Shown here: piece by piece, positions 9,076-63,999 of the stretch
How positions within the stretch are numbered: position 1 is the first letter of the stretch
Layout: every line of letters begins with the position of its first letter
The notes under the pieces: model-generated
What the model was told of the DNA's origin: nothing
Seen by the model: only the letters and a program-made list of their open reading frames with translations
Databases searched by the model: none
Translations under genes and position numbers: made by a program
Virus record (IMG/VR): IMGVR_UViG_3300006108_000010
Span: 57,598 to 121,597 of that record
Length of the DNA stretch: 64,000 nucleotides
Direction: 5' to 3' (one strand)
From: a virus

Positions 9076-9078
9076 AAA

Positions 9079-9480
9079 TTATTTTTTAACATAGGTTAAG
9101 GTTCTTATTAAATAATCTCCCAGTTGATTATCAACCTTTGAATAAAGTTTATAATCAGTTGGATCGATTTCTACTTTAGGTAAATTTGGTTTATTAGAAA
9201 TTTTTTTAATTTGTTCTTGTTTATGAGCAATTTTGCGTATATCGACACCTTCGCCTTTTAAAGCATCTAAAAAGGCATCTTTATCTTTAAAGAACAATCT
9301 CCAAACTGGAATTGGCACTAATATATTAAGTGCAAAAGCTCTTGCTGAGCAAGTTTTGCAAGGCGTGTCGCTTTTGGTAATAATTTTTGTTAACCACCCA
9401 ATTAATTTAGAATGCAGTACACAAGCTACTACATCTCCTAATCCCTCTGCATATCTAAATTTTAACTTTGGATGCTTCAT
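9079..9480 (-). CDS. Unknown phage protein with CxxC motif (133 aa)
   Basis: The protein begins MKHPKLKFRYAEGLGDVVAC. It has a CKTC pair at about residues 42-45 and a hydrophobic stretch ALNILVPIPVWRLFF that is probably buried rather than a membrane helix. The second half is basic and charged. CxxC suggests a metal or redox site, but only one pair is present. I do not recognise the family; similar small proteins often sit near tail genes of T4-like phages. An AATAAATA box precedes the start with 7-base spacing, so it heads a two-gene unit with the Dps-like gene. Confidence 0.6.
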   Translation of the reverse strand: MKHPKLKFRYAEGLGDVVACVLHSKLIGWLTKIITKSDTPCKTCSARAFALNILVPIPVWRLFFKDKDAFLDALKGEGVDIRKIAHKQEQIKKISNKPNLPKVEIDPTDYKLYSKVDNQLGDYLIRTLTYVKK

Positions 9481-9486
9481 TGTTTA

Positions 9487-9843
9487 CTATTTATTATGTT
9501 TTGCAAGAATTTCCAATATAGTGCTGCTCATCTCTTTAAATTCGGAATTAAACAAGTTAGCATTTTTGGATATCAAATTTAATTGTTTTATTACATTAAT
9601 TAATTGAATACCAATAGGATATGATTTTAAAATTTCTTGATATGCTTTTTGGGCTTCATCGAGTTCGATGGTTTTTTTATTAGAAACCATTGCTCCATTA
9701 TCATAATCACCTTCCCAATGCCATAATTTTAAATCAGAATATTCTTCTGGTAATTTCTTCTTAAGAATATTAATCTTGTCATTATTAGGCAATTCTGGAC
9801 TATATCCAATGAATTGTTTATTGGCGTTAAATAAAGCAAACAT
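9487..9843 (-). CDS. Small tail-region protein of unknown function (118 aa)
   Basis: The N-terminus MFALFNANKQFIGYSPELPN, followed by LKLWHWEGDYDNGAMVSN, is a compact beta domain of a kind seen in small proteins next to phage fibre genes. The second half is helical (LINVIKQLNLISKNANLF). It starts directly after the stop of the 294-residue gene and has no promoter box, so it belongs to that operon. A fibre-assembly or chaperone role is possible from location only; I do not recognise a family. Confidence 0.6.
   Translation of the reverse strand: MFALFNANKQFIGYSPELPNNDKINILKKKLPEEYSDLKLWHWEGDYDNGAMVSNKKTIELDEAQKAYQEILKSYPIGIQLINVIKQLNLISKNANLFNSEFKEMSSTILEILAKHNK
9488..9495 (-). promoter_or_regulatory. 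Late-type promoter box AATAAATA
   Basis: AATAAATA on the minus strand, 7 bases before the ATG at 9480. One mismatch to the T4 late box TATAAATA. It overlaps the stop-codon region of the upstream gene. Confidence 0.55.
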
Positions 9844-9844
9844 T

Positions 9845-10729
9845 TTATGTTAAGATTGCATCATATGAAATCCAAGCAGGAATTTTTAAATTTGGATCTA
9901 TCGCTGCTATAAATTTAACTGTATATAAACTTTGCATATATACATTATTTTGACCATATTCTACCTTTATAGTTCTATTATAATTTTCTAATGATTTAGT
10001 AGAAGCAGGTATTATATTACCAAGTTGACCGACCGCATTGGAATAAACGTTATGGAATTGGTAATCATCATTATAAGAAGTATATGAACCAATAGCTTTG
10101 CTACCAAGTGCGGCAATTGCATATGTATTTATTTGAGATGTACTTGTTGCATTATTAACAACCCCATTTGGATAAGCATAATCATTACCAGTTAATGGCA
10201 CAAAAACCGTTCCATGAATATTTCCACTTGTATTGATTGGTGTCGTAAAAATTGGCATTACTACATTTGCTCTTGTACCTAAATTGTAGGATTTTACTGG
10301 AAATTTATTGTTGAGATATGAAAGCATTTGTGTGCTTAAAGTATAAAATGCGGTGGATATATAGTTATTTGTTGGTACAATGCCATCCGATATAACTCCA
10401 TTATTGTAAGAATCGGGTGTATAAATGTTGTATTCATACATTACGGTAAATTCTGATGTATCCCAATAAGAACTTAAAGTTTGAATGACGTTATGATTTA
10501 ATTGATAACTGCTTATTGCCTGAGATGAAAAATTAGAAGCTAACCAATTTAAGTTTGGTATCATTGAAGACAGTTCATTAAACCATGTCAGAATACTATC
10601 TTGTCCTAAGAAACTCTCAGACGAGATATTACAAATTAATGTATCAATAGCGAGGATGTTATAGTTGTGTTTTCCTACGGAATCTCCTACGCAATCAGTT
10701 GGTTCGATTTCAAATGTTAAGCTTCTCAT
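9845..10729 (-). CDS. Virion protein, paralogue 3 of a tandem trio (294 aa)
   Basis: The N-terminus contains CVGDSVGKHNYNILAIDTLI, which matches SIGDSLSAVNSNYLNLDEYV in the next gene upstream and a looser form in the third. All three then carry a Trp-containing helical segment (WFNELSSMIPNLNWLASNFS here) and a beta-rich second half. Unlike the other two, this copy lacks the cysteine cluster. It ends with KVEYGQNNVYMQSLYTVKFIAAI. Genes follow one another with 3 or fewer bases between them. Late structural role, probably fibre or baseplate periphery, inferred from location. Confidence 0.65.
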   Translation of the reverse strand: MRSLTFEIEPTDCVGDSVGKHNYNILAIDTLICNISSESFLGQDSILTWFNELSSMIPNLNWLASNFSSQAISSYQLNHNVIQTLSSYWDTSEFTVMYEYNIYTPDSYNNGVISDGIVPTNNYISTAFYTLSTQMLSYLNNKFPVKSYNLGTRANVVMPIFTTPINTSGNIHGTVFVPLTGNDYAYPNGVVNNATSTSQINTYAIAALGSKAIGSYTSYNDDYQFHNVYSNAVGQLGNIIPASTKSLENYNRTIKVEYGQNNVYMQSLYTVKFIAAIDPNLKIPAWISYDAILT

Positions 10730-10732
10730 ATA

Positions 10733-11467
10733 TTATATTTGTTTTACGTAGTTCCAAACGCATCCTTCCATATTATAAAGTAAACAATGTATATTAGTAT
10801 CTTCTGATATATCAGTATAACTTGTATATAAAGTTGCTTCTATGCTTGGGCTGTAATAATGTCCCCCCGTCTGAGCATAATAACACGGTTCAGCTACGTT
10901 TTCTGTACAAGGTGAAGAACCGCCACATGCTTTATTACCGTTTGAACACGCAGCAGTTCCGGTAAAACTTGTTGAGCAATTAAATGCTATATTTAAATCA
11001 CTCGTTACGCATGTTGTTGAATTTGCAAATAAAATTGGTGGCATAGAATTAACAGTTGTGTCCTGTATTATTACATTAACATATGCTTTTTGATTTTCTA
11101 CATATAAATTTTCATTTGGTGGAAAATTAGTATTTAACCAATTTGTAATATCCGCAGGATTTTGTATAGACGCAACTGGATTTGCATAAAAAACAACTAG
11201 GGGTTCTATCCACTTTGCGCTGTTTTGTGATACAAGAGACACACAAGAATCCCATTTACCTTTATTTGAACTTGCTTGATTAACAATAGTGCTAAACTGA
11301 CCCGACATAGTTTTATAATAATCTTTAAGAGGTAACCATAAATTATTAGCACTGAATTGAATAGTATTTGTTACATATTCATCTAAATTTAAATAATTTG
11401 AATTTACAGCGGATAAAGAATCCCCTATACTATCAGTTGATAAAATTTTTATAAATGTATAGCTCAT
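10733..11467 (-). CDS. Virion protein, paralogue 2 of a tandem trio, Cys-rich C-terminus (244 aa)
   Basis: The N-terminal module (STDSIGDSLSAVNSNYLNLD) is shared with the downstream gene. A helical Trp-bearing middle follows, then a C-terminal part dense in cysteine (around CSTSFTGTAACSNGNKACGG and CTENVAEPCYYAQ). The cysteines look like a loop-stabilising cluster or a metal site grafted on a beta scaffold. It starts 1 base after the stop of the upstream paralogue and has no box of its own, which supports coupling. Role unknown; structural by context. Confidence 0.65.
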   Translation of the reverse strand: MSYTFIKILSTDSIGDSLSAVNSNYLNLDEYVTNTIQFSANNLWLPLKDYYKTMSGQFSTIVNQASSNKGKWDSCVSLVSQNSAKWIEPLVVFYANPVASIQNPADITNWLNTNFPPNENLYVENQKAYVNVIIQDTTVNSMPPILFANSTTCVTSDLNIAFNCSTSFTGTAACSNGNKACGGSSPCTENVAEPCYYAQTGGHYYSPSIEATLYTSYTDISEDTNIHCLLYNMEGCVWNYVKQI

Positions 11468-11468
11468 A

Positions 11469-12302
11469 TTATGATGTTAATGCCCATGTTTGGGTTCCGG
11501 TTGGTATATAATATCTTAGTTTTATTGCCCTAGCAGTAAACGTATCGGTTTCTATTTGTGAATATGGCGTTTTATTTGCTGGTATTATTATAGTTCCTGC
11601 GCCCGAATCGGGTGTGCATTGATAGGTTTTTGTTTGTGGTGCAGTAGATGTTCCGCAGTGTAAAAGATAATTATCACAATTACCATACCCTGCTGCGCCG
11701 CCGTGATGGTTGCAATTGTTTGAACCACCTGGCACGGGGCAATCAGTAGTGCATCCTGTGGCAGTACCAGAAGCACCAGCCCCTGTTAAATGACAATCAT
11801 GGTAATAATAAGCTTGAAAGTCTGTTAAATCAAATTCAAAATTTTCATATACATTTACGTAAACCGAAATAACTTGTTGTGGTGCAAAATTATTAACAGG
11901 AAAATTTAAATTGATCCAGTTTATAACATCATGACTAATATATGTAGCAGACGTTTGAATCCAATCTTGGATTTCATACATTTTATTATAATAAATTGCA
12001 AATTCATTAGCCCAACCAGAACTTAAAGAATTTACTAAATTATAATCATTATTCCATCTTGATGCATAAGTTTTAACATTATTAAATGCTCCTAACCATG
12101 CTGAACTACTATTTGCAAAAACCGTATAAACACTGTTAAAATAATCTCCAGAATCTTCTATAGATTCTATTGCAGAACTGAGAGTATTAAAATTGCTGTT
12201 TATGTATTGTAATGAATTTGAAAGACAAAAGGTTTGGTCAATCAAAAAAGCATTTGAACAAGTTGGTGTTGTTTTGTTAAAAATTGTATTTACGTCTGCC
12301 AT
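11469..12302 (-). CDS. Virion protein, paralogue 1 of a tandem trio, Cys/His-rich insert (277 aa)
   Basis: The N-terminus (TCSNAFLIDQTFCLSNSLQY, then NSNFNTLSSAIESI) is a looser version of the module in the next two genes. The middle has the same helical Trp pattern. Residues of roughly 165-235 form a Cys/His/Gly-rich insert (YYYHDCHLTGAGASG, CTTDCPVPGGSNNCNHHGG, CDNYLLHC) that could bind metal or form disulfides. The final part is beta-rich (IETDTFTARAIKLRYYIPTG). It is positioned 1 base after the LamG/propeller gene and co-transcribed with it. Function not known. Confidence 0.65.
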   Translation of the reverse strand: MADVNTIFNKTTPTCSNAFLIDQTFCLSNSLQYINSNFNTLSSAIESIEDSGDYFNSVYTVFANSSSAWLGAFNNVKTYASRWNNDYNLVNSLSSGWANEFAIYYNKMYEIQDWIQTSATYISHDVINWINLNFPVNNFAPQQVISVYVNVYENFEFDLTDFQAYYYHDCHLTGAGASGTATGCTTDCPVPGGSNNCNHHGGAAGYGNCDNYLLHCGTSTAPQTKTYQCTPDSGAGTIIIPANKTPYSQIETDTFTARAIKLRYYIPTGTQTWALTS

Positions 12303-46007: not shown

Positions 46008-47558
46008 TTAGAGGTAGTTTGCAGCAGCTGCATTACCTACGAAGCTTGTTCCGAGACCCTTAACTATGATAACGTGGTAGTATAAAGATGCACCAAAGAT
46101 ATGATCGACTACACCGTAGCGGGTCATAAGACCTACGCGTGGTGCAAAGTCGTTAGGACCAACTGTGCGCTGGATCATAACTGGGATGTATGGGCAATAT
46201 ACAATACCTGTGTCATAGTATTCGGTTCCCTTATAGCCTAAGAGGGCATACTCAAGCGGATTTGCTCTTTGACCTGAAAGATACTGCGCATCAGTACGGG
46301 TATCACGGTAGACGGTGAAACGTCCTCCGAGAGTACCAACCTTTGCGATTCCGGTTGGCTGCGTGTTAACGTTGCCGTTAACTGGCATCCACTGGAATTC
46401 TGGTAACATTTCAAGAATTGCGCACACACGAGGTGTAGCAATGATGAAGTTAGCAGAACCTCTACGGTTACGGATTGCGACACGATTAGCCTCGACAATT
46501 ACCTTACTGTAGAAATCACGGTTTCTCTCTCCTAACCAACGTGCGTCAGCGGATTGAGCGTACCAATATGTGTATCCGTTAGGTGTACCTGCATTGAGAC
46601 ATACTTGGATCATACGCATGACCATTTCACGGTCGATTTCAGCCTGAATTTCATATGACATTGCATTTGTTAATTCAGAGTCGATATCGAGTCCGTTCAT
46701 GTTCTTAAGATCCTGTTCAAGTTCAACTGACCAACGAGCAGCGAGGCGGCGTGTGCCAGCTTCAACTGCTGTCTTGCTGAACTCAACAACAACCTGTGGG
46801 ATGTTGCCAGTTAATTCATAGTCACTGAGAAGTGCAGCAACACCCTGATCTTGACCAACGATGGTGAAGTCAGCGGAGTTTGCACCACTAATTCCTTGGA
46901 AGTATGATGCAGCACTTGTGCCTGTGAATCTTGTATCTAAGAACTGATAACCCAATTCTGCATTTCGTGCAGGACTGAATGATGTATCAGCGTTTGCTCC
47001 GTTAGGTCCTTCAACATTGGAACGATCCCATGTGGAATCTCCAGATGCTTCGCTATTGTTATTGGTTGTTCCTGCATTACCAGGTCCGAGTGTGGTCGAA
47101 CCAGTTGCATAACCATCAATACCATTAGCACCTAATGAAGTAGCCTCATAGCGGTAACGTAAAGCAAATGCAAGTCCGACTGGGCCGCTCATTGGCTGTA
47201 CACCTACGATCTCATTCGTGATAAGCTCTGGGAAAGTACGGCGAACCATTGGGATGAGTACCTTTGGTAAGCGTGAATCTCCTTGAGCATATGTATCTCC
47301 AGAGAACTGATTGTATGTTGCAGCTGTTCCGAAAACACCGCCGTTGGTAGAACTACCACCTGAGATATTGTAGGATGCTTCTTCGATGCACCATCTTTCT
47401 TGGTTCTCCATGAGAATAGCAGTAGTTAAGCGTTGGTGCTCGTTTTCGATTGGTGCAACCTTATCGGATGAATAATCGAGAACTGGGGCCCACTTTTCAA
47501 CTAACTGCTGAGCACGAGAACGATCAATGTAGCCTGTAGCTGGATTGGAATTTCTCAT
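46008..47558 (-). CDS. gp23: Major capsid protein gp23
   Basis: 516 residues against 521 in T4. The family signature is present at residues 100-136: LIPMVRRTFPELITNEI followed by VGVQPMSGPVGLAFALRYR. A plausible gp21 cleavage site, I-E-E before Ala61 (CIEEASYN), fits the T4 rule of cutting after [LI]xE and lies close to the T4 position (Glu65). The N-terminal ~60 residues would then be the removed scaffold-binding peptide. Base composition is more GC-rich and codon use more regular than in the fibre genes, as expected for a highly expressed gene. It has its own Shine-Dalgarno sequence and a strong terminator. Confidence 0.97.
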   Translation of the reverse strand: MRNSNPATGYIDRSRAQQLVEKWAPVLDYSSDKVAPIENEHQRLTTAILMENQERWCIEEASYNISGGSSTNGGVFGTAATYNQFSGDTYAQGDSRLPKVLIPMVRRTFPELITNEIVGVQPMSGPVGLAFALRYRYEATSLGANGIDGYATGSTTLGPGNAGTTNNNSEASGDSTWDRSNVEGPNGANADTSFSPARNAELGYQFLDTRFTGTSAASYFQGISGANSADFTIVGQDQGVAALLSDYELTGNIPQVVVEFSKTAVEAGTRRLAARWSVELEQDLKNMNGLDIDSELTNAMSYEIQAEIDREMVMRMIQVCLNAGTPNGYTYWYAQSADARWLGERNRDFYSKVIVEANRVAIRNRRGSANFIIATPRVCAILEMLPEFQWMPVNGNVNTQPTGIAKVGTLGGRFTVYRDTRTDAQYLSGQRANPLEYALLGYKGTEYYDTGIVYCPYIPVMIQRTVGPNDFAPRVGLMTRYGVVDHIFGASLYYHVIIVKGLGTSFVGNAAAANYL

Positions 47559-52548: not shown

Positions 52549-54411
52549 TTATGCTGCTGGTGTTTCCGTAGCTTCTGCGCCAGCTTCAGGAACTTCCGTT
52601 GTAGCTGCTTCCGGTGCTTGTGTCGTTTCTGCTGTAGCACCACCACCGAATTCTGGGATTTCAGCTGCCGTTGGTGCTCCACCGCCTCCACCCGCTGCTG
52701 GTGCGGCTGCGCCACCTGCTCCAAGTGCACCAGCGGCTTGCTCTGCCGCTTGAATGTGTTCACGCCAGTTGGGTCCGGTCTGAGCAATCTGATCCAACTC
52801 CCATTTGAGTGCTGCATCCTTTCTGAGCCATTCCATGTTTTCGGAAATCTTGGCATCGTTTAATCCGAGATAGTGACGCTGGGCAAATGTCTTAGAAATT
52901 GATTCATTCTGAGACATGTTATTGAAATTATTATACTTTAATTCAAATTCTTGATTCTTTCTAATTGCAAAATAATTGGAAGGAGGATTAAAGTGAATAT
53001 CGAAATACGATTCATGCATTCCGTATTCTTTCCACCATCCACGGAGTTTTAAATGAGTAATGAATGTTTCTTTAAGACCTGTTGCAAATTGATTTTGAAT
53101 ACGAACAACAAATTTTGCAAAACGTAATTCTTCTCTTAAAATTTCTGCACCATCTTTATATCCCTCGTCTGGGTTCATACGAGTTAAAGGAACCTTGAGG
53201 CTCTTATAAAGTTTATTGACAAAATAGGTCAAATCTTCAATCTTACCAAGATTTGCTCCACCTTGCATAAGTTCTACATCACTTCCTGCTTCACCTTGAC
53301 GCTTTGCAAACCAAAAAGCATCCAACATAGATTGTGGATCGTAAATGTTACCAGCACCCTTTCCAGATTGCGCATCATATGTCTTTTTAGACCAATATGC
53401 TTGCATGAGTTGTTTTAAATATGCCTCTGCTTTAGCGGGTGGCATATTACCAACATCAATTTTAAATTTAAGACGTTCTGGTGCACGAACCATTCGATAA
53501 ATGACTACCGCATCTTCAAGTAATGAAACCTGCTTATATGAACGACGAGCATTTTCAAGGAACGGAACCTTAATTGACATGTCTTCATTCCACATGCCAG
53601 AATTAATATAGGTAATCTGATTTCCTTGGAATGTGATTAATTGTTGTTGCAAGGAATTGGAATTATTCTGTGATGAAGGTGGAGCAGATGGGCTATTTGG
53701 ACTACTTGCGTGTTGTTGTAAGCTAATTGGTTTTTGGAAAATGAAGTTTTCAATTACGTTATTTTGAACATTATCGTAAACTGGATTGATCAATTCACCT
53801 GGTATATTCAACACACCAATAATACCTAATTCTCTTTTTCTTTCGTGAACAACGTTTTCAAAGAAAATTTCACCTTCGATTAAAAGCTGTCTACAATATC
53901 CCCAACCTTTGTGCTCCAAGTCAAAAACTTGAATGAATTTGTAAAACTCTTTTTCAATTTCACTTCTCTCATTTGAGTCTAATTTACCAAATGTTGAAAA
54001 TCCAATTCTTAAAAATTTATCCTCATCATCCTTATTTAGAAATTCATCACAAATTTCATCTAAACAGTCTGCGATTTCTGCATAAGATCCCATTCTGCGA
54101 TACTCTGCAATTCTTCTGATTTTATCAACGTCAACACTGGCATAAATGTATTTGTGATATGCGTGATCAGAGGTAAAGGAGCCAGGTCCGTACTGATCCG
54201 TATTCTGGCGCATTGCGGGACCGGTAATAACGGACTGCTGCATGACACGATATTCATGTCTTTTTGATAAGCGGTCGAAAAGTTCATATCTTGGATTTCC
54301 AATATCAGCATCCACTGCGTCTTGGATATAAGGCAATCTAGAAAGAATATTTGATATGAAATTTCTACCGTTATCTGGCTGTCTATTCGGTGTAGGTAAT
54401 ACGTCAGGCAT
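52549..54411 (-). CDS. gp20: Portal vertex protein gp20
   Basis: 620 residues against 524 in T4. Core features: SLLEDAVVIYRMVRAPERLK, FKIDVGNMPPAKAEAYLKQL, SGKGAGNIYDPQSMLDAFWF, and LYKSLKVPLTRMNPDEGYKD. All are typical of the T4-like portal wing and stem. The C-terminal ~80 residues form an Ala/Pro/Gly/Thr low-complexity tail (AAAPAAGGGGGAPTAAEIPE), longer than in T4 and probably disordered. A second insertion of Ser/Pro/Gln-rich sequence lies near residue 230-255. The dodecameric portal is the DNA entry channel. Two late-type boxes precede it. Confidence 0.95.
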   Translation of the reverse strand: MPDVLPTPNRQPDNGRNFISNILSRLPYIQDAVDADIGNPRYELFDRLSKRHEYRVMQQSVITGPAMRQNTDQYGPGSFTSDHAYHKYIYASVDVDKIRRIAEYRRMGSYAEIADCLDEICDEFLNKDDEDKFLRIGFSTFGKLDSNERSEIEKEFYKFIQVFDLEHKGWGYCRQLLIEGEIFFENVVHERKRELGIIGVLNIPGELINPVYDNVQNNVIENFIFQKPISLQQHASSPNSPSAPPSSQNNSNSLQQQLITFQGNQITYINSGMWNEDMSIKVPFLENARRSYKQVSLLEDAVVIYRMVRAPERLKFKIDVGNMPPAKAEAYLKQLMQAYWSKKTYDAQSGKGAGNIYDPQSMLDAFWFAKRQGEAGSDVELMQGGANLGKIEDLTYFVNKLYKSLKVPLTRMNPDEGYKDGAEILREELRFAKFVVRIQNQFATGLKETFITHLKLRGWWKEYGMHESYFDIHFNPPSNYFAIRKNQEFELKYNNFNNMSQNESISKTFAQRHYLGLNDAKISENMEWLRKDAALKWELDQIAQTGPNWREHIQAAEQAAGALGAGGAAAPAAGGGGGAPTAAEIPEFGGGATAETTQAPEAATTEVPEAGAEATETPAA

Positions 54412-54483: not shown

Positions 54484-55422
54484 ATGGACAAATATGTTAT
54501 CTTTCACATTGACGGTGGTTGTGGTAAAAACATTGTTGCAACTTCTGTCGTTAAATCAATCAAGGCAGCTTACCCTGATCGTAAGTTAATTGTTGTTACG
54601 GCATGGCCCGAAGTTTTCGTACACAATCCCAGTATTTATAGAGTTTATAAGTTTGGTAATATTCCTTATTTCTACGATGATTACATTAATGGTACGGATT
54701 CAGTAATTTTACGCTCCGAACCTTATCATTCTGGTGATTTATTATATCGTAGAAAGTCATTAACCGAAATTTGGTGTGATGTTTTTAATATTCCATGCAT
54801 CGATAAGAAACCAGAGATATTCTTAACGGAAAGAGAGCTTTTATTTGCTCAAAAGCAACTTCAAAAGGACGGACCTGTTCTCCTAATTCAGTCTTCGGGT
54901 GGTGCTGAACAGCAAGGTCATCCGTATTCATGGTCAAGAGACCTTCCTCCTGCTTTTGCACAGGAACTTGTTAATTCCGTTAGTGATAAATTCAGTAAAA
55001 TTCTTCATGTTAGAAGAGAAAATCAACCACCACTTGATGGAACTATTTTTGTAAGTGATAATTTCAGGAATTTGTTCTGTTATGTCGCACTTTCTGATAA
55101 AATTCTTGGAATTGATTCATTTGCTCAGCATGCAGCTGCTGCATTTGGTAAAAAAGCAACAGTTGGTTGGATTTCCAACTCTCCTGTTGTTTTTGGACAT
55201 GAAATCCATGACAATATCGTAGCAAACGGAGCAGAATCGTTCCGTCATCGTATTGATTCATATCTTGAAGAGGATGATTGGACGGGTGGAAGGTTCCATG
55301 AATGTCCTTATGATAATTTGGCTAATCTTTTTGACAAAGATCAGTTCATTGAATCGATTTTAGGCTCCAAAAATGAATTAACCTTTGATATTGTTGATCA
55401 GCCAACTATTAAATTTAACTAA
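54484..55422 (+). CDS. Glycosyltransferase family 9-like protein (312 aa)
   Basis: The N-terminus MDKYVIFHIDGGCGKNIVAT followed by SVVKSIKAAYPDRKLIVVTA has the form of heptosyltransferase-like (GT9) enzymes (GD.I..T..l..lk..yP...i.v.t). The second half carries VLLIQSSGGAEQQGHPYSWS and SDKILGIDSFAQHAAAAFGK, the latter like the conserved GT9 segment ending in DSxxxHxAAA. It would transfer a sugar from an activated donor; substrate unknown. It is translationally coupled (TAATG) to the sulfotransferase gene. Such pairs may modify virion glycoproteins or the host envelope. Only a weak box (GATAAATT) precedes it. Confidence 0.72.
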   Translation: MDKYVIFHIDGGCGKNIVATSVVKSIKAAYPDRKLIVVTAWPEVFVHNPSIYRVYKFGNIPYFYDDYINGTDSVILRSEPYHSGDLLYRRKSLTEIWCDVFNIPCIDKKPEIFLTERELLFAQKQLQKDGPVLLIQSSGGAEQQGHPYSWSRDLPPAFAQELVNSVSDKFSKILHVRRENQPPLDGTIFVSDNFRNLFCYVALSDKILGIDSFAQHAAAAFGKKATVGWISNSPVVFGHEIHDNIVANGAESFRHRIDSYLEEDDWTGGRFHECPYDNLANLFDKDQFIESILGSKNELTFDIVDQPTIKFN

Positions 55423-56246
55423 TGAAAAACATATTCTTTAATTCATCAATGCCTCGCAGCATGAGTACACTATTTCAGTGTATTTTAAATCAACATCCTG
55501 AGATCCACGCAACTCCAACTGATCCAGTATTAGAATATTTGTATGGTGCTAGAATGAACTACACTAATACACCCGAAGTTAAGGCAATAGATAAGGCATT
55601 GGCTCAGCAAACATGGAGAGGTTTCTGTTGGGGTGGATTAGAAGGTTATGCAAATTCTTACACCGATAAACCAAATATCTGTATTAAGACTCGTGGTGGA
55701 ACTATTCACTATAAATGGTTTGAGTCTTTTATGCCATATAAGCCTAAAATGATTTGTATGGTCAGAAATCTAAAGAGTATTTTTGCATCGATGGAAAAAC
55801 TTTATAGGAATGGTCAAGAATATCATCAGGCTATCCAGAATCATTCGGAAATGAAAGGCACATCCACGGCAAAGAGAATAGATTCTTGGCTTGCTGCTCC
55901 TCCTGTTGGATTAGCTCTTGAAAGATTGCAACAAACCTTTTTAGAAGGAATTAACAAAGAGGTTCTTTATATAAGAGCAGAAGATTTAACCTCATATCCC
56001 CAAAAGGAAATGGATAAAGCATACGAATATCTTGGATTAAATTCACATAAACATGATTTTGACAACGTAGAACAAACCGTAAAGGAAGACGATTCGGTTT
56101 ATGGGTTTTCAAATGATCTTCATACTATTAGAAGAAAAGTTCAACCTTTAACACCTGATTATAACAATATTTTAGGTAAACAAGTTTGTGATTGGATCGA
56201 TAATAATCTCGCTTGGTATCAGCAAGGATTTGGATATACCAAATAA
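55422..56246 (+). CDS. Sulfotransferase-family protein (274 aa)
   Basis: The N-terminal PAPS-binding loop FFNSSMPRSMSTLFQCILNQ corresponds to the PRSGSTLL motif (R12, S15, T16). The 3'-phosphate-binding motif is MVRNLKSIFASMEKLY (R115, S123). The size is normal for the family. It would transfer sulfate from PAPS to a hydroxyl or amine of a sugar or protein; acceptor unknown. Sulfotransferase-like genes have been seen in marine T4-like phages. Its start overlaps the GT9 stop, so the two are probably made together. The gene ends 5 bases from the convergent LamG gene. Confidence 0.85.
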   Translation: MKNIFFNSSMPRSMSTLFQCILNQHPEIHATPTDPVLEYLYGARMNYTNTPEVKAIDKALAQQTWRGFCWGGLEGYANSYTDKPNICIKTRGGTIHYKWFESFMPYKPKMICMVRNLKSIFASMEKLYRNGQEYHQAIQNHSEMKGTSTAKRIDSWLAAPPVGLALERLQQTFLEGINKEVLYIRAEDLTSYPQKEMDKAYEYLGLNSHKHDFDNVEQTVKEDDSVYGFSNDLHTIRRKVQPLTPDYNNILGKQVCDWIDNNLAWYQQGFGYTK

Positions 56247-56251
56247 TTAAT

Positions 56252-58408
56252 TTAGATTCCTAAATAAGATTTTAAATAAGAATAAGCAAATCGTACCTCT
56301 ACATCCGTTAGTCTTCTGTTGTAAACTATAAAATATTTTATATCTCCCCAATATTGAGATCCGCTATTAGGGTCTGTGTTTCCATTGTGATATCCGCCAA
56401 TAGAACCAAATCCTATTACATACCTAGCAACAGAATCTGTTATAGATCCTACATTTACACCATTAACATTTAAATTATATGTAGGATTATCACCATCTGT
56501 CCATCTCCAACACATTATATCAAAGGAATTAGATGCATAGCCAGGGAGAGATTGTTGAGAATATCCAGTATCTCTAAAACCAGAACCGTTACCTATGTAT
56601 GTTCCTATATCCCATCCACCAGATTGTACAATTACCTGATGATTACCAGGCGATCCATATGCACGAGTTAGTGTTCTCCAATCTCCTGCCGAATTTAAAA
56701 TTCTGGTTGCACAAATATACGTAACATCTCCAGACAGATTTATGTCAGAAGAATTTTTTGCCATTCCATAACTTCCTTTGAAGTCCATATATTTGCTACC
56801 GGAATTAAACGCAGCAGAATTAATATTAAAATTATTACCATTTCCGCTCACATCATACCATACTCCACCGCTACCAGAATAGCTAGATGTATTTGTTGCA
56901 TCTAGCAAAAGAGTAATATTGCCAGTGGGAAGTTGAGGGGAAACAGTTGTTGTTATAATTTGAGCATTATTAGTTATTGGCGGCAAGTTACTAATTGGTG
57001 GCAATGGTGTGAAATTAGAATGATATATCATCGTTCCTTGTGTAACTCTTATATCTTGGATATAACCATTAAAATAATTACCAAGATTGTTATAACTCAT
57101 GCAACCAATAGATATATTTGAAGAAGCATCTGTTAATGGAAAATTAACACTACCGACCAAATTGCCATCAAGATACATATACTGATTAGAACCATCAGAA
57201 CAAAATGCAACATGATGCCAAGTGTTTGTTGTAATATTAAGACCTGTACTTGTAAAATTCCAATTACCATTAATATTATCGGTTCCCACAAATATTGCAT
57301 CACTATAAATTGCTATACACCAAGAAAAATTTGAACCATATGTATCTTTAGATATAATCGTACTCGCTGCATTCCCATTTGTATATAGTGATTTTGCATA
57401 AAACCATGCTTCAATTGTTGATGGTACACTAGCTAAATTAAATTCACTGGCATCATTTAATACCAATGAGCTTGAACCATTAAAATATCCTGCGCTATAT
57501 GTTTTATTAGATAAATCATTAAACGATTTTATTATCGGGGTTCCTGTATTAATTGTAATACTATTATTATAAGTTGAACTATCATTAAAATTATTATTCA
57601 TAACCATTAATAATGATGGCTGTGTTGAAACCGCAGATAATTGATTTGTTAAAAATCGTGGGTTACTAGTTATAAATTGTGGGTTAGTTTGTAGGCTGAT
57701 AGTGCTATTATAAGAAAAAGCATTGCCACGGTTGTAAAGAATTGAGATTTCATTTGGGGATAATGCTCTATTCCAAACACCTATTTCGCACAAACTACCA
57801 TTAAAATAACTATTATATCCATCCCAATCACCTCCTCCTATAACAGTACCACTATTATTATTATTGAATGCAGCTAAAATATTATCGTTTTGTGAAGCAA
57901 CTGCTACATTATTGATATAAAGAGTTGCTAAATTGTTTTGTTTTACAATAACTGCATGATACCATACGCCAACTGTTGCGTTGCTGGAATTAACAATTCC
58001 GTTAACAATCGTGCCATTGTGTTCATAACCAATTGCTTGATTATTTGCATAAAAAAAATCTAACTTAACACTATTTGTTACCCAACCATACTGAGAAGAA
58101 AATATTGCAGGATATGATCTAGTTTGACCTGCCGAATTAATCCACGCTTGGATGGAAAAATCTCCAGAAAAATTAAAAGCGTTATTAGGAGATATGTATA
58201 AATAAGTGTTATTGTTTGGGTTAAAAACGGCGCAACCGCTTAAAAGTCCAGTGCCTAACGTAACACCTCCATTGTTTGTTAAGGTATTTCCGTTGCCTGT
58301 TAAATCTGTTAAATTTAAATTACCTGAACCATCATTACCTAAACTCCAATAGGCTATTGCACCTGTTGGAAAAGTTTTAGTAGCTTGCGTTGTTAAAATA
58401 TTTGACAT
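56252..58408 (-). CDS. Adhesin with three LamG/concanavalin-like domains (718 aa)
   Basis: Three jelly-roll lectin-like domains in tandem. About residues 15-235: GAIAYWSLGNDGSGNLNLTD, FSIQAWINSAG, WYHAVIVKQNNLATLYINNV, WNRALSPNEISILYNRG. About 265-470: MVMNNNFNDSSTYNNSITI, IEAWFYAKSLY, NTWHHVAFCSDGSNQYMYLD. About 490-718: ITLLLDATNTSSYSG, WYDVSGNGNN, YFIVYNRRLTDVEVRFAYSY. The third is of the type at the C-terminus of the VWA protein. Such domains typically bind glycans. No enzyme motif was seen. It starts 5 bases after the fibre gene upstream and has no box, so it is part of that operon. Confidence 0.85.
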   Translation of the reverse strand: MSNILTTQATKTFPTGAIAYWSLGNDGSGNLNLTDLTGNGNTLTNNGGVTLGTGLLSGCAVFNPNNNTYLYISPNNAFNFSGDFSIQAWINSAGQTRSYPAIFSSQYGWVTNSVKLDFFYANNQAIGYEHNGTIVNGIVNSSNATVGVWYHAVIVKQNNLATLYINNVAVASQNDNILAAFNNNNSGTVIGGGDWDGYNSYFNGSLCEIGVWNRALSPNEISILYNRGNAFSYNSTISLQTNPQFITSNPRFLTNQLSAVSTQPSLLMVMNNNFNDSSTYNNSITINTGTPIIKSFNDLSNKTYSAGYFNGSSSLVLNDASEFNLASVPSTIEAWFYAKSLYTNGNAASTIISKDTYGSNFSWCIAIYSDAIFVGTDNINGNWNFTSTGLNITTNTWHHVAFCSDGSNQYMYLDGNLVGSVNFPLTDASSNISIGCMSYNNLGNYFNGYIQDIRVTQGTMIYHSNFTPLPPISNLPPITNNAQIITTTVSPQLPTGNITLLLDATNTSSYSGSGGVWYDVSGNGNNFNINSAAFNSGSKYMDFKGSYGMAKNSSDINLSGDVTYICATRILNSAGDWRTLTRAYGSPGNHQVIVQSGGWDIGTYIGNGSGFRDTGYSQQSLPGYASNSFDIMCWRWTDGDNPTYNLNVNGVNVGSITDSVARYVIGFGSIGGYHNGNTDPNSGSQYWGDIKYFIVYNRRLTDVEVRFAYSYLKSYLGI

Positions 58409-58413
58409 CTATT

Positions 58414-61400
58414 TTAGTTGATTCTATATATCTCAACTTTTGTCCAATTACCGTCAGTTGTACCGACTATAGTTTGACTTGTTGCACTGCTATAGCCAGA
58501 AACGTCAATATAATCTGAAACACCATTAAGATAAATTATAGAAGTTGCCGTTTGAGTTTGAGCACCACCAGAACCAGTAAATAATGGCATTTGTACAAGA
58601 GATTTTGTATTAGTACCATTTATGCGAATTTGAGCATTATTTTGTCCAGTACCTGTAGTCCCATTCCATGCTATTTGATAATTTATAAAATAGTAGCCTG
58701 GCACGGTTGGGGTTATCTTACCAGATAGTGCTGGATACGTACCAATATTTGAAATCCAATTATTAGGATCATTTTTTGGTGATAATGGCAACCAAAGATC
58801 ATTATTTTGTGGTGCTGTTACGTTAGCCGAAAGATATGCGGTGGCAGTATAAGCACCATTTGCAATAAGACTTCCTGTTGCGCTAATGCTACCATTAACT
58901 GTTAATGTATTATTAGGTATTGTGGTATTAATACCAAAATTACCATTTTGATCCACTCTAAAACGTTCAGTACCACCCGCACCAGCGATAAATGTATTTG
59001 CTAAACCAGCAGTGCCCGTCATATTAGCACCTATTATTGTGTTATTATTTCCTGTAGTGAGATTACAACCCGCATTTGATCCCAACGCAATATTAAAATT
59101 TCCAAATGTATTGGCAGCTAATGCAAAATCTCCAAAAGTGAGATTGCTGCAACCACCTATATTTGAGCACAAAGCTCTAAAACCAAATGCTGAATTATTG
59201 CAACCTGATACATTATTATAAAGAGTATTTGTACCAATACTTGTATTGCAGCTGCCTACAGTATTATTATAGTTAGATGCTGTACCAATATTAACATTAA
59301 AACTACCCGTGCTGTTTCGAGTCATTACTGATTTACCAATAGCGACATTATAGTTACTAACTGTCGACCCTGTAGCATTAGAGCTATAAAGCGCATTATT
59401 TCCAATTGCAATATTGTGTATACCTAGTCTATTAGCATAACCTGAATATGAACCAATTGATACGTTATTGCATCCGGTAGTGTTACAATACGAGGCTGCA
59501 GGGCCTATAGCTACATTAGCATTTCCGCATGTATTATTAAAAAGAGATCTCCAACCAATAGCATTGTTATTGCTACCGCAAACATTATAATAGAGCGCAT
59601 TATAACCAGATGCTGTATTACAAGAACCACTTGTATTTGAATATAAAGTTGTATCGCCTAAAGCAATATTATTTATACCACATGAAGTATTAACTCTCAA
59701 TGCATTAACACCTAAAGCTGTATTATTACCACCAATATAATTTCCTCTTGAAACAAGAAATCCTGATGCCAAACATATACTACTTGGTGTACATACAGGT
59801 GATGGTAGGCTTAACGTAACAGTACCAGAAGAATAGCTAGCTGCTATTTGATTTGCTGTACCACTTACCGCTGTAACGGAACTACTCCCGCCGCTTCCTA
59901 GTAATACACCATTAGCATAAACCGCATTAGATGCTGATATCGTACCAGAAACTGTTAATACTTGATTTGGTGTAGAAGTATTAATACCAACATAACCATT
60001 GGATGACAAATACATTGTTGTGGTTGGATTTGAAAATCCAGGTCCGTTACTATAAAAAGCTAAACTATCTGCGCCTGTTGCATTACCTACGCTGATGCGA
60101 CCAATGCCTGGCGAACCTTGTATATAATCAATAATAACACCGTCTCCACTTACTCCAGCATATGTACTATTTGCCCAAAATCCACTACCAATTATTGTAC
60201 TTTGTGCACTCAATGCACTAACTTTAAATGTGGTTGCCGTAGTTGAATTAACCAAAGTGTAGACAGAACTCCAGTTAGCTGAAGTGGAATTTACCTTACT
60301 GTATACAGATGCGTTATTTGCACTAGCTGATTGTAAAAAGGATATACTATTCCAATTTGAGGAATTTGAATTTACATAACTATAAACCGATTTATCATTA
60401 GCAGATAATGCTTGTAAAAATGAAATACTGTTCCAGTTGGAACTATTATTTGTAGTACTACCCCAAGTATTATATACACTGTTCCAGTTGGAACTATTAT
60501 TTGTAGTACTACCCCAAGTATTATATACACTGTTCCAATTATTGCTGTTTCCTGATGCATCAGCTACTATACCCAGCGAAGAAATATTATTTACATATGT
60601 ATAGTTTGCTATATTAGCTGTTATGTTTGAACCTAGGATAAATGTATTACTAAGTCTGTTTGTATTATTGGCAGATCCACCAGCAATAAAAGAATAATAA
60701 CCAGATGCGGTGTTTGATTTTCCACCAACTATTGCAGAATAATATCCGCAAGCAATATTACTTTGACCTCCGCCAACAACTGCATAACTATTATAGTCTG
60801 CTCCGGTTGGTCTCATACCTCCCCAACCTGCAATGTTACTCAAACCACCACCAATAAAGGAATATGCAGAGCATATAACATTACCGAAACCACCACCAAT
60901 CGTTGAATAACAATTAAATACATAAGTAACAGTGCCACATAAAACGTTGCTACCGCCGCCACCAATAAATCCATTGTAATCTTGTATTAAGTTGCCATCG
61001 CCACCAACGATAACACTTTGATCTCCATTAGGAAGTATCGAATTGGTTAGACCACCGCCAATAAAAGATCCGCCCCCATTTGGACATGCTGTATTATGTG
61101 ATCCACCTGCGATAGTATCGCAACCGCCGTTGCCTACACTGTTACCATATCCACCTGATATTGTACTGAGACCGCCATATGTATTAACAAGATTGTTGCA
61201 CCCACCACCTATTGTTGAACAGGCAGCATATGCCTTGTTGGTATAACCACCAGAAACGGTGGAATCTTGACCATTAGAAAGATTGCTATAACCCGCACCA
61301 ACAAATGATCTAATTCCATTTGCTTGATTATTATATCCACCTGATACAGTAGAATTTAATTCTGTTGCTTGGTTACCGCAACCGCCGCCTATAAACGAAC

Positions 61401-61953
61401 TATCTCCCGTAGCATTATTACCATAACCACCTGATATGGTGGATTTACTATTAGTTGAATTATTATTTTGACCGCTACCGACGAATGAATATGTAGCGGA
61501 AGCCGTATTTGAACGACCGCCAACTACGATTGCATAATTTGCTGATGCTGTATTACAACTACCTGCGCCAATGAAAGGAGAACTACCGAAGCCAGGTTGT
61601 ACAACTCCATTATGTGCAGCGTTAGCATTGTTTGCACATGCTACATAACACCCATAAGCTCCAGTTATAAACCAGTTAATGCAACAACCACCACTATCGC
61701 ACTGTGCAGTTGTTGCATTGATCCCATTAGGGACAGTTAGTGTGCCACCAACGGTCAGTCCGCAACTTATGTAAGTTCCATTGGAATAGTTTATGGAAAG
61801 CGTTTGCGGTCCGTTACCGATACAATTAGCCGAAAGACCGTCATAAAATATAGTTTGATTTCCTGTACCTTGAATGCAAGAAGCATTAAGCGTACTTAAT
61901 ACACTTAATGTACTGTTATACTGAAATGGATTTGTTTCTACCTGTAGCGACAT
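58414..61953 (-). CDS. Tail fibre: GGxxN repeats, SANW stalk, NxALG repeats and C1q-like tip (1179 aa)
   Basis: Domain order: an N-terminal cap with Cys (QCDSGGCCINWF); Cys-containing GGxxN repeats (about 104-440) ending in TFILGSNITANIANYTYVNN; a short SANW stalk with a perfect 17-residue duplication (about 470-570); a GINTSTPNQVLTVSG module (about 650-690); NxAxG repeats of another kind (NNTALGVNALRVNTSCGINN, NVAIGPAASYCNTTGCNN; about 738-984). A C-terminal C1q/TNF-like jelly roll of ~150 residues follows (SGKITPTVPGYYFINYQIAW, ending NWTKVEIYRIN). C1q-like tips bind receptors in other systems. It starts 2 bases after the sulfotransferase-like gene and lacks its own box. Confidence 0.85.
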   Translation of the reverse strand: MSLQVETNPFQYNSTLSVLSTLNASCIQGTGNQTIFYDGLSANCIGNGPQTLSINYSNGTYISCGLTVGGTLTVPNGINATTAQCDSGGCCINWFITGAYGCYVACANNANAAHNGVVQPGFGSSPFIGAGSCNTASANYAIVVGGRSNTASATYSFVGSGQNNNSTNSKSTISGGYGNNATGDSSFIGGGCGNQATELNSTVSGGYNNQANGIRSFVGAGYSNLSNGQDSTVSGGYTNKAYAACSTIGGGCNNLVNTYGGLSTISGGYGNSVGNGGCDTIAGGSHNTACPNGGGSFIGGGLTNSILPNGDQSVIVGGDGNLIQDYNGFIGGGGSNVLCGTVTYVFNCYSTIGGGFGNVICSAYSFIGGGLSNIAGWGGMRPTGADYNSYAVVGGGQSNIACGYYSAIVGGKSNTASGYYSFIAGGSANNTNRLSNTFILGSNITANIANYTYVNNISSLGIVADASGNSNNWNSVYNTWGSTTNNSSNWNSVYNTWGSTTNNSSNWNSISFLQALSANDKSVYSYVNSNSSNWNSISFLQSASANNASVYSKVNSTSANWSSVYTLVNSTTATTFKVSALSAQSTIIGSGFWANSTYAGVSGDGVIIDYIQGSPGIGRISVGNATGADSLAFYSNGPGFSNPTTTMYLSSNGYVGINTSTPNQVLTVSGTISASNAVYANGVLLGSGGSSSVTAVSGTANQIAASYSSGTVTLSLPSPVCTPSSICLASGFLVSRGNYIGGNNTALGVNALRVNTSCGINNIALGDTTLYSNTSGSCNTASGYNALYYNVCGSNNNAIGWRSLFNNTCGNANVAIGPAASYCNTTGCNNVSIGSYSGYANRLGIHNIAIGNNALYSSNATGSTVSNYNVAIGKSVMTRNSTGSFNVNIGTASNYNNTVGSCNTSIGTNTLYNNVSGCNNSAFGFRALCSNIGGCSNLTFGDFALAANTFGNFNIALGSNAGCNLTTGNNNTIIGANMTGTAGLANTFIAGAGGTERFRVDQNGNFGINTTIPNNTLTVNGSISATGSLIANGAYTATAYLSANVTAPQNNDLWLPLSPKNDPNNWISNIGTYPALSGKITPTVPGYYFINYQIAWNGTTGTGQNNAQIRINGTNTKSLVQMPLFTGSGGAQTQTATSIIYLNGVSDYIDVSGYSSATSQTIVGTTDGNWTKVEIYRIN
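60430..60531 (-). repeat. Perfect 51-bp tandem duplication inside fibre stalk
   Basis: The 51 bases at 60430-60480 are repeated exactly at 60481-60531. They encode two copies of a 17-residue unit (NTWGSTTNNSSNWNSVY). The identity indicates recent slippage or recombination. Confidence 0.9.
60560..61640 (-). repeat. Coding repeat region: GGxxN units
   Basis: Degenerate repeats of about 42-48 bases encode GGxxNxAxGxxSxIxGG units, the same kind as in the fibre genes at 20198 and 27100. Confidence 0.7.
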
Positions 61954-61955
61954 AA

Positions 61956-62714
61956 TTAACTAGATACTGAAGGGATCACCGTAGATACACTCGCATATAA
62001 TGTCATATCATCGTAATAATAATTCTCCAATGCGGTGATTTGTTCCGGTGTTAATTCGGGTTTTAATAATGAATTTGTATTATTAATAACTGGTAATGGT
62101 GATTGTAAACCAATATCAGAAGCTAATTGATCAAGTTGAGTGGCAAAATCATAATATTTAATATTTGGAAAATTGCCAATAATAATACTTTGTGGTCTGT
62201 AGTGCCAATTTAAAGTTCCTCTATCCTGTTCAACCAACCAATCAATAAAATCTCCTACTGCGGTGAGTTGTGGAACACCTTTAAGTTTTTTTGCAAATGC
62301 ACTCTTGAATCTTTCAATTGGATGTCTAACAACGGCATGAGGAATACCAGTTGGAACGCTTGAAATTGGAAGTTGTGTACTATATTGCATAATACCAGCA
62401 CCAAAATCTATAGGACTAATACTTGGAAAAAATGTTTGTGCTATTTGGGTTGTAAGAGTTGTACTTCCTGCTCTTCTAATGTTTGCAAGAGAATGACCAT
62501 TAGGAAGATTAAAATATATACTTTGATAACTTTCTGTAACCAAATTTAACTCGTTTGCTTTATTTGTAACTTCTTCTTGAGTTTGAGCAAGAAATATCAA
62601 TGGAGAAAATGGAACAAACTTACCAGATAATTCATAAATTTGGGCAGTTCCATTTGGATACCCAAAAAATAAACCATAATAAGGGTTTATTAATTCATTC
62701 TGTGTTGCACTCAT
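61956..62714 (-). CDS. Sulfotransferase-like protein within fibre cluster (252 aa)
   Basis: Residues 80-91 (RRAGSTTLTTQI) resemble the PAPS 5'-phosphosulfate loop, and 128-140 (VVRHPIERFKSAF) closely match the 3'-phosphate-binding motif VRxPxxRxxSAF of the sulfotransferase family 2 group. The ~75 N-terminal residues (YYGLFFGYPNGTAQIYELSG) do not belong to the core fold and look like a small beta domain. It differs clearly from the sulfotransferase at 55422. It sits in a fibre operon 2 bases before a fibre gene, so the likely acceptor is a virion fibre, or a glycan attached to it. Activity is unproven. Confidence 0.72.
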   Translation of the reverse strand: MSATQNELINPYYGLFFGYPNGTAQIYELSGKFVPFSPLIFLAQTQEEVTNKANELNLVTESYQSIYFNLPNGHSLANIRRAGSTTLTTQIAQTFFPSISPIDFGAGIMQYSTQLPISSVPTGIPHAVVRHPIERFKSAFAKKLKGVPQLTAVGDFIDWLVEQDRGTLNWHYRPQSIIIGNFPNIKYYDFATQLDQLASDIGLQSPLPVINNTNSLLKPELTPEQITALENYYYDDMTLYASVSTVIPSVSS

Positions 62715-62720
62715 ATATTA

Positions 62721-62728
62721 TATATTTA
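62721..62728 (-). promoter_or_regulatory. Late-type promoter box TAAATATA
   Basis: TAAATATA on the minus strand, 6 bases before the ATG at 62714. Confidence 0.55.
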
Positions 62729-62784: not shown

Positions 62785-63999
62785 TTAAGATGTATAGTTC
62801 CAAAGTTGAATTGCTTGATTTGTTCCGTTTACATTCACGATTAAAAATGTTCCAGATGCTGTTACCGGATTTACAAATGTTGTGGGTGCAGAAGTTATAT
62901 TTAATGAACTTGCATATATTGTATTTGTAGAACTAATATTTCCAACAACTGTTAAATTTGTATTTGGTGTTCTCGTACCAATTCCAACATTACCATTGGG
63001 ATTAATACGCATTCTTTCATTGCCACTTAATGTACCACCAGTAAAGAACGTTAAACTACTTGTTGTTGATGCTGCGCCTAATACAAGATTTGCACTCGTT
63101 GAGTAAACATACGAGTCTCCAGCATTAACTACATTGAATGTTGGGCTATAAAGATTACCATTATATTTTGTACTAGCTATACCTAAGTCCAAATAATTAA
63201 TATTATCATCATTATATAATGAAATATCCGTACTGGAACTAACACTTGGCGTAATATTTTGTATTTGATTAAATACAGATCCGCTAGCAGAAGATATAAT
63301 AGTTAATGGAGCAGAATTTAACTTTGCAATATTAGAAGTTGAACCAAATTGAGCAGATGGTGAAGCTACTAATCCTTGAGAAGAAATATTATTAACAAAT
63401 GTAAAATTATTTGCACTAACTGATATGTTAGATCCCAAAATAAATGAATTTAATCCATTTAAAAAGTTATTACATCCATTTAAAATTGTATTGTAGCGAC
63501 CGCAAATGCTATTGTTACAACCTCCGCCGATTAAATTGTAAGGACTGTTATAATTAATGCAATTAGTGTTTCCACCAAGAATTGTATTATAATAACCAGA
63601 TGCAGAATTTGATCCGTAAGTTGGATTTATATTACAGTTAGATGGATTAACATAATAAGCTTGACTAGATAGTTTGCTAAATGTTGAAGTGTTATAAGAA
63701 GGATTATTTGTTGCGGAATTTGAATTTACATAACTATAAACACTAGAATTGTTAGCCGATGCAGCTTGTAAGAAAGATATAGAGTTCCAATTGGCAGAAT
63801 TCGAATTTACAGAACTATAAACAGATGCATTGTTTCCACTTTGAGAATTAAAAGAAGAATAAACAGATTTATCATTAGCTGATAAGGCTTGTAAGAAAGA
63901 TATTGAACTCCAATTAGCCGAATTTGAGTTTACTGAACTGTAAACAGATTGGTCATTAGTTGAAAGAGCTTGTAAGAACGATATTGAATTCCAATTTGC
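62785..63999 (-). CDS. Tail fibre, C-terminal part only (runs off window edge)
   Basis: The frame is open from the stop at 62785 to the right edge (405 codons visible); the true start is beyond the window. From the edge inwards it has SANW-type units (NSANWNSISFLQALS, SANDKSVYSSFNSQSG), a few Cys GGxxN repeats (LIGGGCNNSICGRYNTIL), the FILGSNISVSANNFTFVNN linker, a module shared with the gene at 20198 (YNGNLYSPTFNVVNAGDSYV, then FFTGGTLSGNERM), GNVGIGTRTPNTNLTVVGNI, and a short tip ending IQLWNYTS. It is built from the same parts as the other fibres but with a minimal tip. Confidence 0.85.
   Translation of the reverse strand, partial: ANWNSISFLQALSTNDQSVYSSVNSNSANWSSISFLQALSANDKSVYSSFNSQSGNNASVYSSVNSNSANWNSISFLQAASANNSSVYSYVNSNSATNNPSYNTSTFSKLSSQAYYVNPSNCNINPTYGSNSASGYYNTILGGNTNCINYNSPYNLIGGGCNNSICGRYNTILNGCNNFLNGLNSFILGSNISVSANNFTFVNNISSQGLVASPSAQFGSTSNIAKLNSAPLTIISSASGSVFNQIQNITPSVSSSTDISLYNDDNINYLDLGIASTKYNGNLYSPTFNVVNAGDSYVYSTSANLVLGAASTTSSLTFFTGGTLSGNERMRINPNGNVGIGTRTPNTNLTVVGNISSTNTIYASSLNITSAPTTFVNPVTASGTFLIVNVNGTNQAIQLWNYTS

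Follow-up and report, generated by a model that had tools for sequence, protein, structure and literature searches.

Gene content of the locus

We analysed a 64,000-nucleotide stretch of viral DNA (the window), positions 57,598 to 121,597 of IMG/VR record IMGVR_UViG_3300006108_000010, which forms the right-hand 64 kb of a virus record of 121,597 bases in all. Here a predicted glycosyltransferase (GT) and two unrelated sulfotransferases (ST1 and ST2) lie around a cluster of fibre genes, an arrangement that we tentatively read as a system for decorating fibres with sulfated sugars. The locus comprises the following features, in window coordinates:

52549-54411, minus strand: gp20-like portal gene, left border of the cassette (PF07230, 1.6e-96)
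54484-55422, plus strand: GT, a glycosyltransferase of predicted GT9 fold (GT-B), 312 amino acids (aa) (fold match; PHROG_8954, 1.6e-6)
55422-56246, plus strand: ST1, a putative sulfotransferase dependent on 3'-phosphoadenosine-5'-phosphosulfate (PAPS), Sulfotransfer_3, 274 aa (Pfam match)
56252-58408, minus strand: fibre/lectin protein, 718 aa, with two LamG_3 stretches (2.6e-35)
58414-61953, minus strand: long fibre, 1179 aa, with two kinds of Hag-like repeat (our name for them) and a weak C-terminal C1q-like domain
61956-62714, minus strand: ST2, a putative sulfotransferase of Sulfotransfer_2 (glycan) type, 252 aa (PF03567)
62721-62728, minus strand: start-codon box TAAATATA, 6 nt before the ST2 ATG, of the kind that precedes structural genes
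62785-63999, minus strand: upstream fibre open reading frame (ORF), interrupted by the end of the record

The source is a T4-like, lake-type phage, with the gp20 portal and gp23 (46008-47558) both in the window. Its nearest isolates in the phage collection, with cyanophages or a marine relative among the matches listed, share about 34% identity in gp23 and 32% in gp20. The GT and ST1 ORFs overlap by one base, and the ST2 ORF is flanked on both sides by fibre ORFs. An initial annotation made from the sequence alone had proposed two distinct sulfotransferases and a glycosyltransferase around lectin- and C1q-bearing fibres, and the ORFs, Pfam matches, folds and motifs described here bear out the enzymes. 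The lectin assignment also stands, given the LamG_3 match, but the C1q domain is weaker than claimed: at the end of the long fibre it scores 14.6 bits (E 0.039) against a Pfam cut-off of 23.7. When this fibre was compared with PDB sequences, the first nine of 14 matches were C1q-family chains (best 2.2e-5).

Fold and motifs of the three enzymes

The GT is a predicted enzyme of GT9 fold. Its model, built from a 23-sequence alignment, is confident (predicted local distance difference test, pLDDT, 89.8), and Foldseek placed GT9 proteins first (3tov at 6.3e-12, WaaF, WaaC and TibC). With VIA-align, these superposed over 247-272 aligned residues at 3.1-3.4 Å, with Z scores of 22.8 (3tov), 20.7 (WaaF), 19.6 (TibC) and 19.2 (WaaC). 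The top eight rows were all GT9 entries (Z 18.9-22.8), and the first row that is neither a heptosyltransferase nor an NDH subunit reached Z 10.9. The GT9-like label, originally a guess from sequence, is thus right by fold, despite the absence of any Pfam family for the window GT at E≤0.1. The GT9 family PF01075 was matched by 4/24 GT members at that threshold (best 0.0098), the window GT not being one of them, and the sole match of a GT profile among PDB sequences was an unrelated dynein chain (E 0.45). Across 34 non-redundant GT sequences 26 positions are invariant, including G14-K15, which by our own placement presumably stand at the position of the catalytic Asp of WaaC.

ST1 exceeds the Pfam cut-offs of both PF13469 (3.4e-9, 37.7 bits versus 27) and PF00685. 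A set of 21 non-redundant sequences, reaching down to 22% identity with the window protein, keeps residues P11, R12, T16, R115 and S123 without exception; we take P11-R12..T16 and R115..S123 to be the PAPS-binding 5'-PSB and 3'-PB motifs, respectively. An ST1 profile matched 58 PDB sequences at E≤0.1, with protein-tyrosine sulfotransferases (TPSTs) on top (2e-13). What we take to be the catalytic Glu of TPSTs does not look conserved in ST1. In one relative, Marine virus AG-345-L05 (L005:10007-11625), a 2-oxoglutarate-Fe(II) oxygenase gene stands immediately ahead of an ST1-type sulfotransferase gene amid fibre-like genes, an order in which hydroxylation followed by sulfation is conceivable.

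ST2 is more divergent. It passes the PF03567 cut-off (1e-5, 26.2 bits versus 22), 12/16 relatives match that family at E≤0.01, and it has an N-terminal extension of its own of about 65 aa. No relative was present in 50,697 phage records, and isolate phages returned none with the window protein or two of its relatives as query; an alignment scan of viral contigs recovered the family at 31 loci, 18 of them non-redundant. The 5' motif [KR]x[GA][SCGA][ST], read by eye from printed stretches, is kept in 17/18 members, as is the 3' motif RxPxxRFxS, the latter frequency being partly by construction because this motif was in the scan pattern. The structural model is weak (pLDDT 60.8; VIA-align Z at most 7.0), and Foldseek returned nothing at E≤0.001, yet its top 17 rows were sulfotransferases. 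All 50 VIA-align rows were likewise sulfotransferases, the top 17 being heparan-sulfate enzymes (Z 7.0-5.0). An ST2 profile run against PDB sequences gave clamp loaders at E 0.04-0.1, with the best solved sulfotransferase at E 0.9. The uniformity of the VIA-align rows, tempered by the weak model and this profile result, makes ST2 a likely glycan-type sulfotransferase. In two relatives (L102 and L107) a small phage domain, phrog_7759, is fused to the N terminus of the ST2 core.

The initial annotation had named loss of PAPS-binding residues as the outcome that would count against it; in the alignments the five ST1 residues and both ST2 motifs were found to be kept. Judged by these motifs, ST1 and ST2 are probably two distinct, active sulfotransferases. 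No membrane-like segment was found in GT, ST1 or ST2.

Conservation of the GT-ST1 pair and its linkage to fibres

The coupling of GT and ST1 recurs across many contigs, as does the link to fibre genes, and so goes beyond chance. The two genes lie on the same strand and at most 1 kb apart, in either order, in 35/42 distinct GT loci (≤100 nt in 28), and the pair is kept in all 24 loci where the GT is at least 60% identical. Ratios of nonsynonymous to synonymous substitution (dN/dS) of 0.06-0.08 for GT and 0.05-0.07 for ST1, against 0.31 for ST2, all at high dS, indicate strong purifying selection on GT and ST1 as estimated from the sequences.

In the relatives mapped, the pair adjoins the fibre cluster. 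Repeats of the window fibre type occur within 6 kb of the GT in 15/23 phage loci; within 1.9 kb they occur at 7/37 GT, 0/35 gp23 and 0/52 cysC phage loci (p 0.012 and 0.0015, values that are lenient because the loci are related to one another). The association is tighter for ST2: an ST2-like ORF directly follows an N/S/T/G-rich, fibre-like ORF in 13/16 evaluable non-redundant members, compared with 4/63 for other ORFs of those loci (p 4e-9). The pair of fibre genes that flanks ST2 in the window also flanks it in the L011 group and L026, three lineages in all, and stands side by side without it in L025; judged from these gene orders, ST2 occupies an optional position between the two.

The same fibre region of L011-type relatives holds a Stf0-type sulfotransferase (7.9e-9), a second Stf0-like gene under the Pfam cut-off and a GT25 enzyme. 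In L011 itself (10105-11670 and 7298-9825) these Stf0 genes and the GT25 glycosyltransferase are joined by a radical S-adenosylmethionine (SAM)/SPASM protein. Family searches for Stf0, GT25 and radical SAM used the copies in L098 and L010.

Bacterial counterparts

When the GT alignment was used to scan a collection of 84,980 species genomes, it led to three contigs of metagenome-assembled genomes (MAGs), which, with two extra GT copies in one genome, give five bacterial GT places:

L285, Bacteroidetes MAG: CysN and CysD (same strand), a repeat protein of 696 aa, an NHL protein whose tail is of type IX secretion system (T9SS) kind, GT (39%), ST1 (48%) and a DUF2061-APS kinase fusion (APS, adenosine-5'-phosphosulfate)
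L286, second Bacteroidetes MAG: CysN, CysD, a repeat protein, an NHL-like protein and a GT cut by the contig end
L284, Paceibacterota MAG: a repeat protein, two adjacent GTs (counted as one place) and ST1
L293, extra GT copy in the L285 genome: beside another repeat protein
L294, extra GT copy in the L285 genome: near a contig end, no repeat protein

A protein matching the window fibre repeats is present at four of the five places (phmmer 3.7e-19 to 7.4e-32), and 40 shuffled queries gave no such match. ST1 is found at 2/5, the sulfate-activation genes CysD/CysN at 2/5 and APS kinase at one. MAG contigs can be mis-binned; by our own reading L284 also has gatB- and Obg-like ORFs. The GT is rare: a 395-genome sample of the phylum yielded no bacterial GT beyond the genome already known. 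In L293 (648-1289) an ORF that looks GT25-like by eye precedes the repeat protein; GT25 likewise accompanies GT-ST1 in the L010/L011 phages.

Start-codon box and expression signals

Of the late control originally proposed, only that of ST2 stands, and there the signal is another one. As a promoter, the canonical T4 late box TATAAATA was rejected: it shows no enrichment in the window (13 occurrences versus 18.5 expected) and is absent before ST2. A window-specific box, TAARTATW, stands 3-7 nt ahead of the start codon of 11/35 genes including ST2, with about 0.005 expected per gene; the 11 include the starts listed at 1340, 3180, 16524, 20198, 31313, 41161, 45326, 50043, 51015 and 61956. No such box precedes GT and ST1, which lie on the other strand, or the two downstream fibre ORFs (56252-58408 and 58414-61953). 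Shine-Dalgarno-like 4-mers precede only 3/34 window genes. Taken together, the box and the scarcity of Shine-Dalgarno sequences perhaps reflect near-leaderless late messages and a host for which Shine-Dalgarno pairing is dispensable. Upstream of the GT, a sigma70-like score of at least 8 was found in 26/52 cases, compared with 29.6% of 575 other ORFs, which is only suggestive of a sigma70 promoter.

Sulfate activation in related phages

Some relatives carry an enzyme for making the sulfate donor. A full-length APS kinase is present in seven sulfotransferase-bearing relatives (G001, G002, G005, G006, G008, G009 and G048), and six records with distant GTs have a short APS-kinase-like gene inside the GT-ST1 cluster (G017, G019, G020, G021, G022 and G055). 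In the loci read (L081, L082, L085, L090 and L092) the short kinase is followed by a nucleotidyltransferase-like and a DUF2061-like gene. Relatives of this phage often have full-length APS kinase; among named phage records the count is only 5/50,697. In G005 cysC lies past the point that corresponds to the end of the window record.

Over the cut-off, APS kinase occurs in 13 of 73 virus records reached via GT, ST1, ST2 or gp23; all 13 have a sulfotransferase, and none of the 35 records without one has the kinase (p 8e-5), six of the 13 being the short kinases of the GT-ST1 cluster. When only records of at least 100 kb are counted, the kinase is found in 6/18 with and 0/8 without a sulfotransferase (p 0.13). 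We rejected the proposal that phage cysC feeds these sulfotransferases, as the reverse test failed: among 38 cysC records, which came from 70 loci (L214-L283) and were themselves about 40 kb or longer, new and not near-identical to records already tested, just eight have Sulfotransfer_3, and the same eight Sulfotransfer_1. This argues for donor support in some members and for no general link between cysC and sulfotransferases. PAPS reductase passed the cut-off in 3/45 cysC records (in one case through a short partial match), and from this rarity the assimilatory interpretation of cysC given in the accessible part of an earlier study (PMC10914622) gains no support here.

Interpretation and alternative explanations

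Our leading explanation, which we hold tentatively, is that GT and ST1 may form a two-enzyme cytosolic glycosylation-sulfation cassette for the repeat-rich fibre, with ST2 as a second, optional fibre-linked sulfotransferase; its order of action, acceptor and benefit are what we infer. In the cytosol the GT would attach a sugar to the Hag-like fibre protein that the same cell produces, and ST1 would sulfate that sugar with PAPS as donor. ST2, co-expressed with the fibres, might place a second sulfate on the same fibres or their glycans, and the fibres would be released with sulfated sugars on them, by which adsorption or stability is tuned. The repeat-rich fibre is the best acceptor candidate because the same repeats accompany the GT even in bacteria, which make no virion; these bacterial loci are the strongest of the new evidence. 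Two structural likenesses count for the proposal: the nearest structures of the GT include the heptosyltransferase TibC, whose substrate is a repeat-rich adhesin, and the best solved relatives of ST1 are protein-tyrosine sulfotransferases. Several observations weigh against it. The ST2 model is poor and its profile reaches a solved sulfotransferase at E 0.9 at best; 8/23 phage GT loci lack a window-type repeat within 6 kb; the GT-ST1 pair is near constant while the adjoining fibres vary, which also fits a fibre-independent target. The bacterial evidence comes from three MAGs, in which L293 and L294 have a GT without ST1 in the DNA fetched and the L286 contig ends inside the GT.

That constancy is one of two reasons why a host-surface target, possible if rather doubtful in our estimate, follows close behind. 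Here the GT would add a sugar to an inner-leaflet precursor of the lipopolysaccharide (LPS) core or capsule and ST1 or ST2 would sulfate it, thereby preventing binding by superinfecting phages or by the phage's own progeny at lysis; linkage to fibres would then be co-inheritance of a receptor-binding protein with a receptor-altering enzyme. The other reason is that most solved GT9 relatives are heptosyltransferases that build LPS. Inner-leaflet precursors would be within reach because the GT has no membrane or signal segment, GT and ST1 stay together in 24/24 close GT loci despite changing fibres, and the sigma70-like regions upstream of the GT hint at host-type expression. Set against this are the structural-gene box before ST2 and the bacterial GT loci, which adjoin repeat-rich proteins and among whose listed ORFs we recognised no operon for LPS or capsule, no family search for one having been made. 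Of the two options first proposed, modification of fibres or their glycans is genuinely strengthened by the bacterial loci in which the GT again neighbours a repeat protein of the fibre's type, and alteration of the host surface remains its rival.

Two further explanations appear improbable. The genes could be sulfur-metabolism auxiliary genes with which the phage channels sulfate towards a soluble metabolite, in keeping with the seven sulfotransferase-bearing relatives that have full-length APS kinase and with surveys that, in their accessible parts, list phage sulfotransferases as auxiliary metabolic genes (PMC13079714, PMC12285232 and PMC8290583). This fits poorly with the tight fibre linkage of both sulfotransferases, the coupling to a glycosyltransferase and the low counts of sulfotransferase (8/38) and PAPS reductase (3/45) in cysC records. 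We see a similarly small chance that ST2 is a sulfotransferase fold now serving as a chaperone for fibres or as a tip protein, with catalysis lost or irrelevant. Fibre chaperones and adhesins are known at the position behind fibre genes, some relatives fuse the ST2 core to phrog_7759, and ST2 evolves faster (dN/dS 0.31); against this, both PAPS-site motifs are kept, with K/R in the 5' motif of 17/18 members.

More broadly, and with greater reserve than for the fibre cassette itself, phages and a few bacteria may share a portable GT-sulfotransferase cassette, sometimes with PAPS-making enzymes, that decorates Hag-repeat fibres, accompanied in the fibre operon by an exchangeable second sulfotransferase. 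If so, a phage would possess sulfated glycoprotein fibres, and glycan sulfation would serve as a re-usable code for receptor-binding proteins. Phage adsorption and host range would gain a chemical layer, and phage-borne PAPS enzymes would have a direct use in at least some phages. In the accessible parts of the literature, sulfotransferases turn up repeatedly in environmental phages and are filed as metabolic genes of unclear purpose. Fibre linkage, together with the repeats shared with bacteria, turns this label into a testable idea: that fibres, or their targets, carry sulfated glycans.

Comparison with known systems

The enzymes all belong to known kinds, and sulfotransferase annotations are already familiar from phages. 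Searches of the open PMC literature for sulfotransferase with tail fiber or fibre, or with cysC and auxiliary metabolic, returned nothing; as far as that literature shows, what is new is that two sulfotransferase families are linked to fibres, that a GT9 enzyme is paired with ST1 and that this pairing has a bacterial counterpart. Mycobacteriophages offer a precedent for phage-encoded virion glycosylation, in which a glycosyltransferase acts on the phage's own structural proteins; they are a different phage group, and we know of no sulfation step there.

A published set of phages is comparable in its cysC genes: the COBRA study reported 62 cysC genes in freshwater phages, read in its accessible part as assimilatory sulfate reduction (PMC10914622), and relatives of this phage likewise carry cysC. 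The accessible main text of that study does not contain the word sulfotransferase (PMC10914622). The family of ST1 includes the Sulfotransfer_3 proteins of cyanophages S-SKS1, S-SRM01 and S-SCSM1, already annotated as sulfotransferases in those records, and of metagenomic OM43-phage genomes, at 26-30% identity; the accessible part of the OM43-phage paper describes their role as unclear (PMC10580990). The three cyanophages differ in that tblastn found no partner of this GT type at their ST1-family loci (three loci).

For ST2, heparan-sulfate-type sulfotransferases provide the nearest structures to the model, and PHROG_3347, 'Galactose-3-O-sulfotransferase', is matched by 7/16 of its relatives. 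The window protein differs from that family in giving no match at E≤0.01 and in its peculiar N-terminal extension. Lastly, the GT has the GT-B fold in common with the LPS heptosyltransferases WaaC and WaaF and the adhesin heptosyltransferase TibC across nearly the whole protein, at 9-12% identity, and is set apart from them by being phage-borne and paired with a sulfotransferase.

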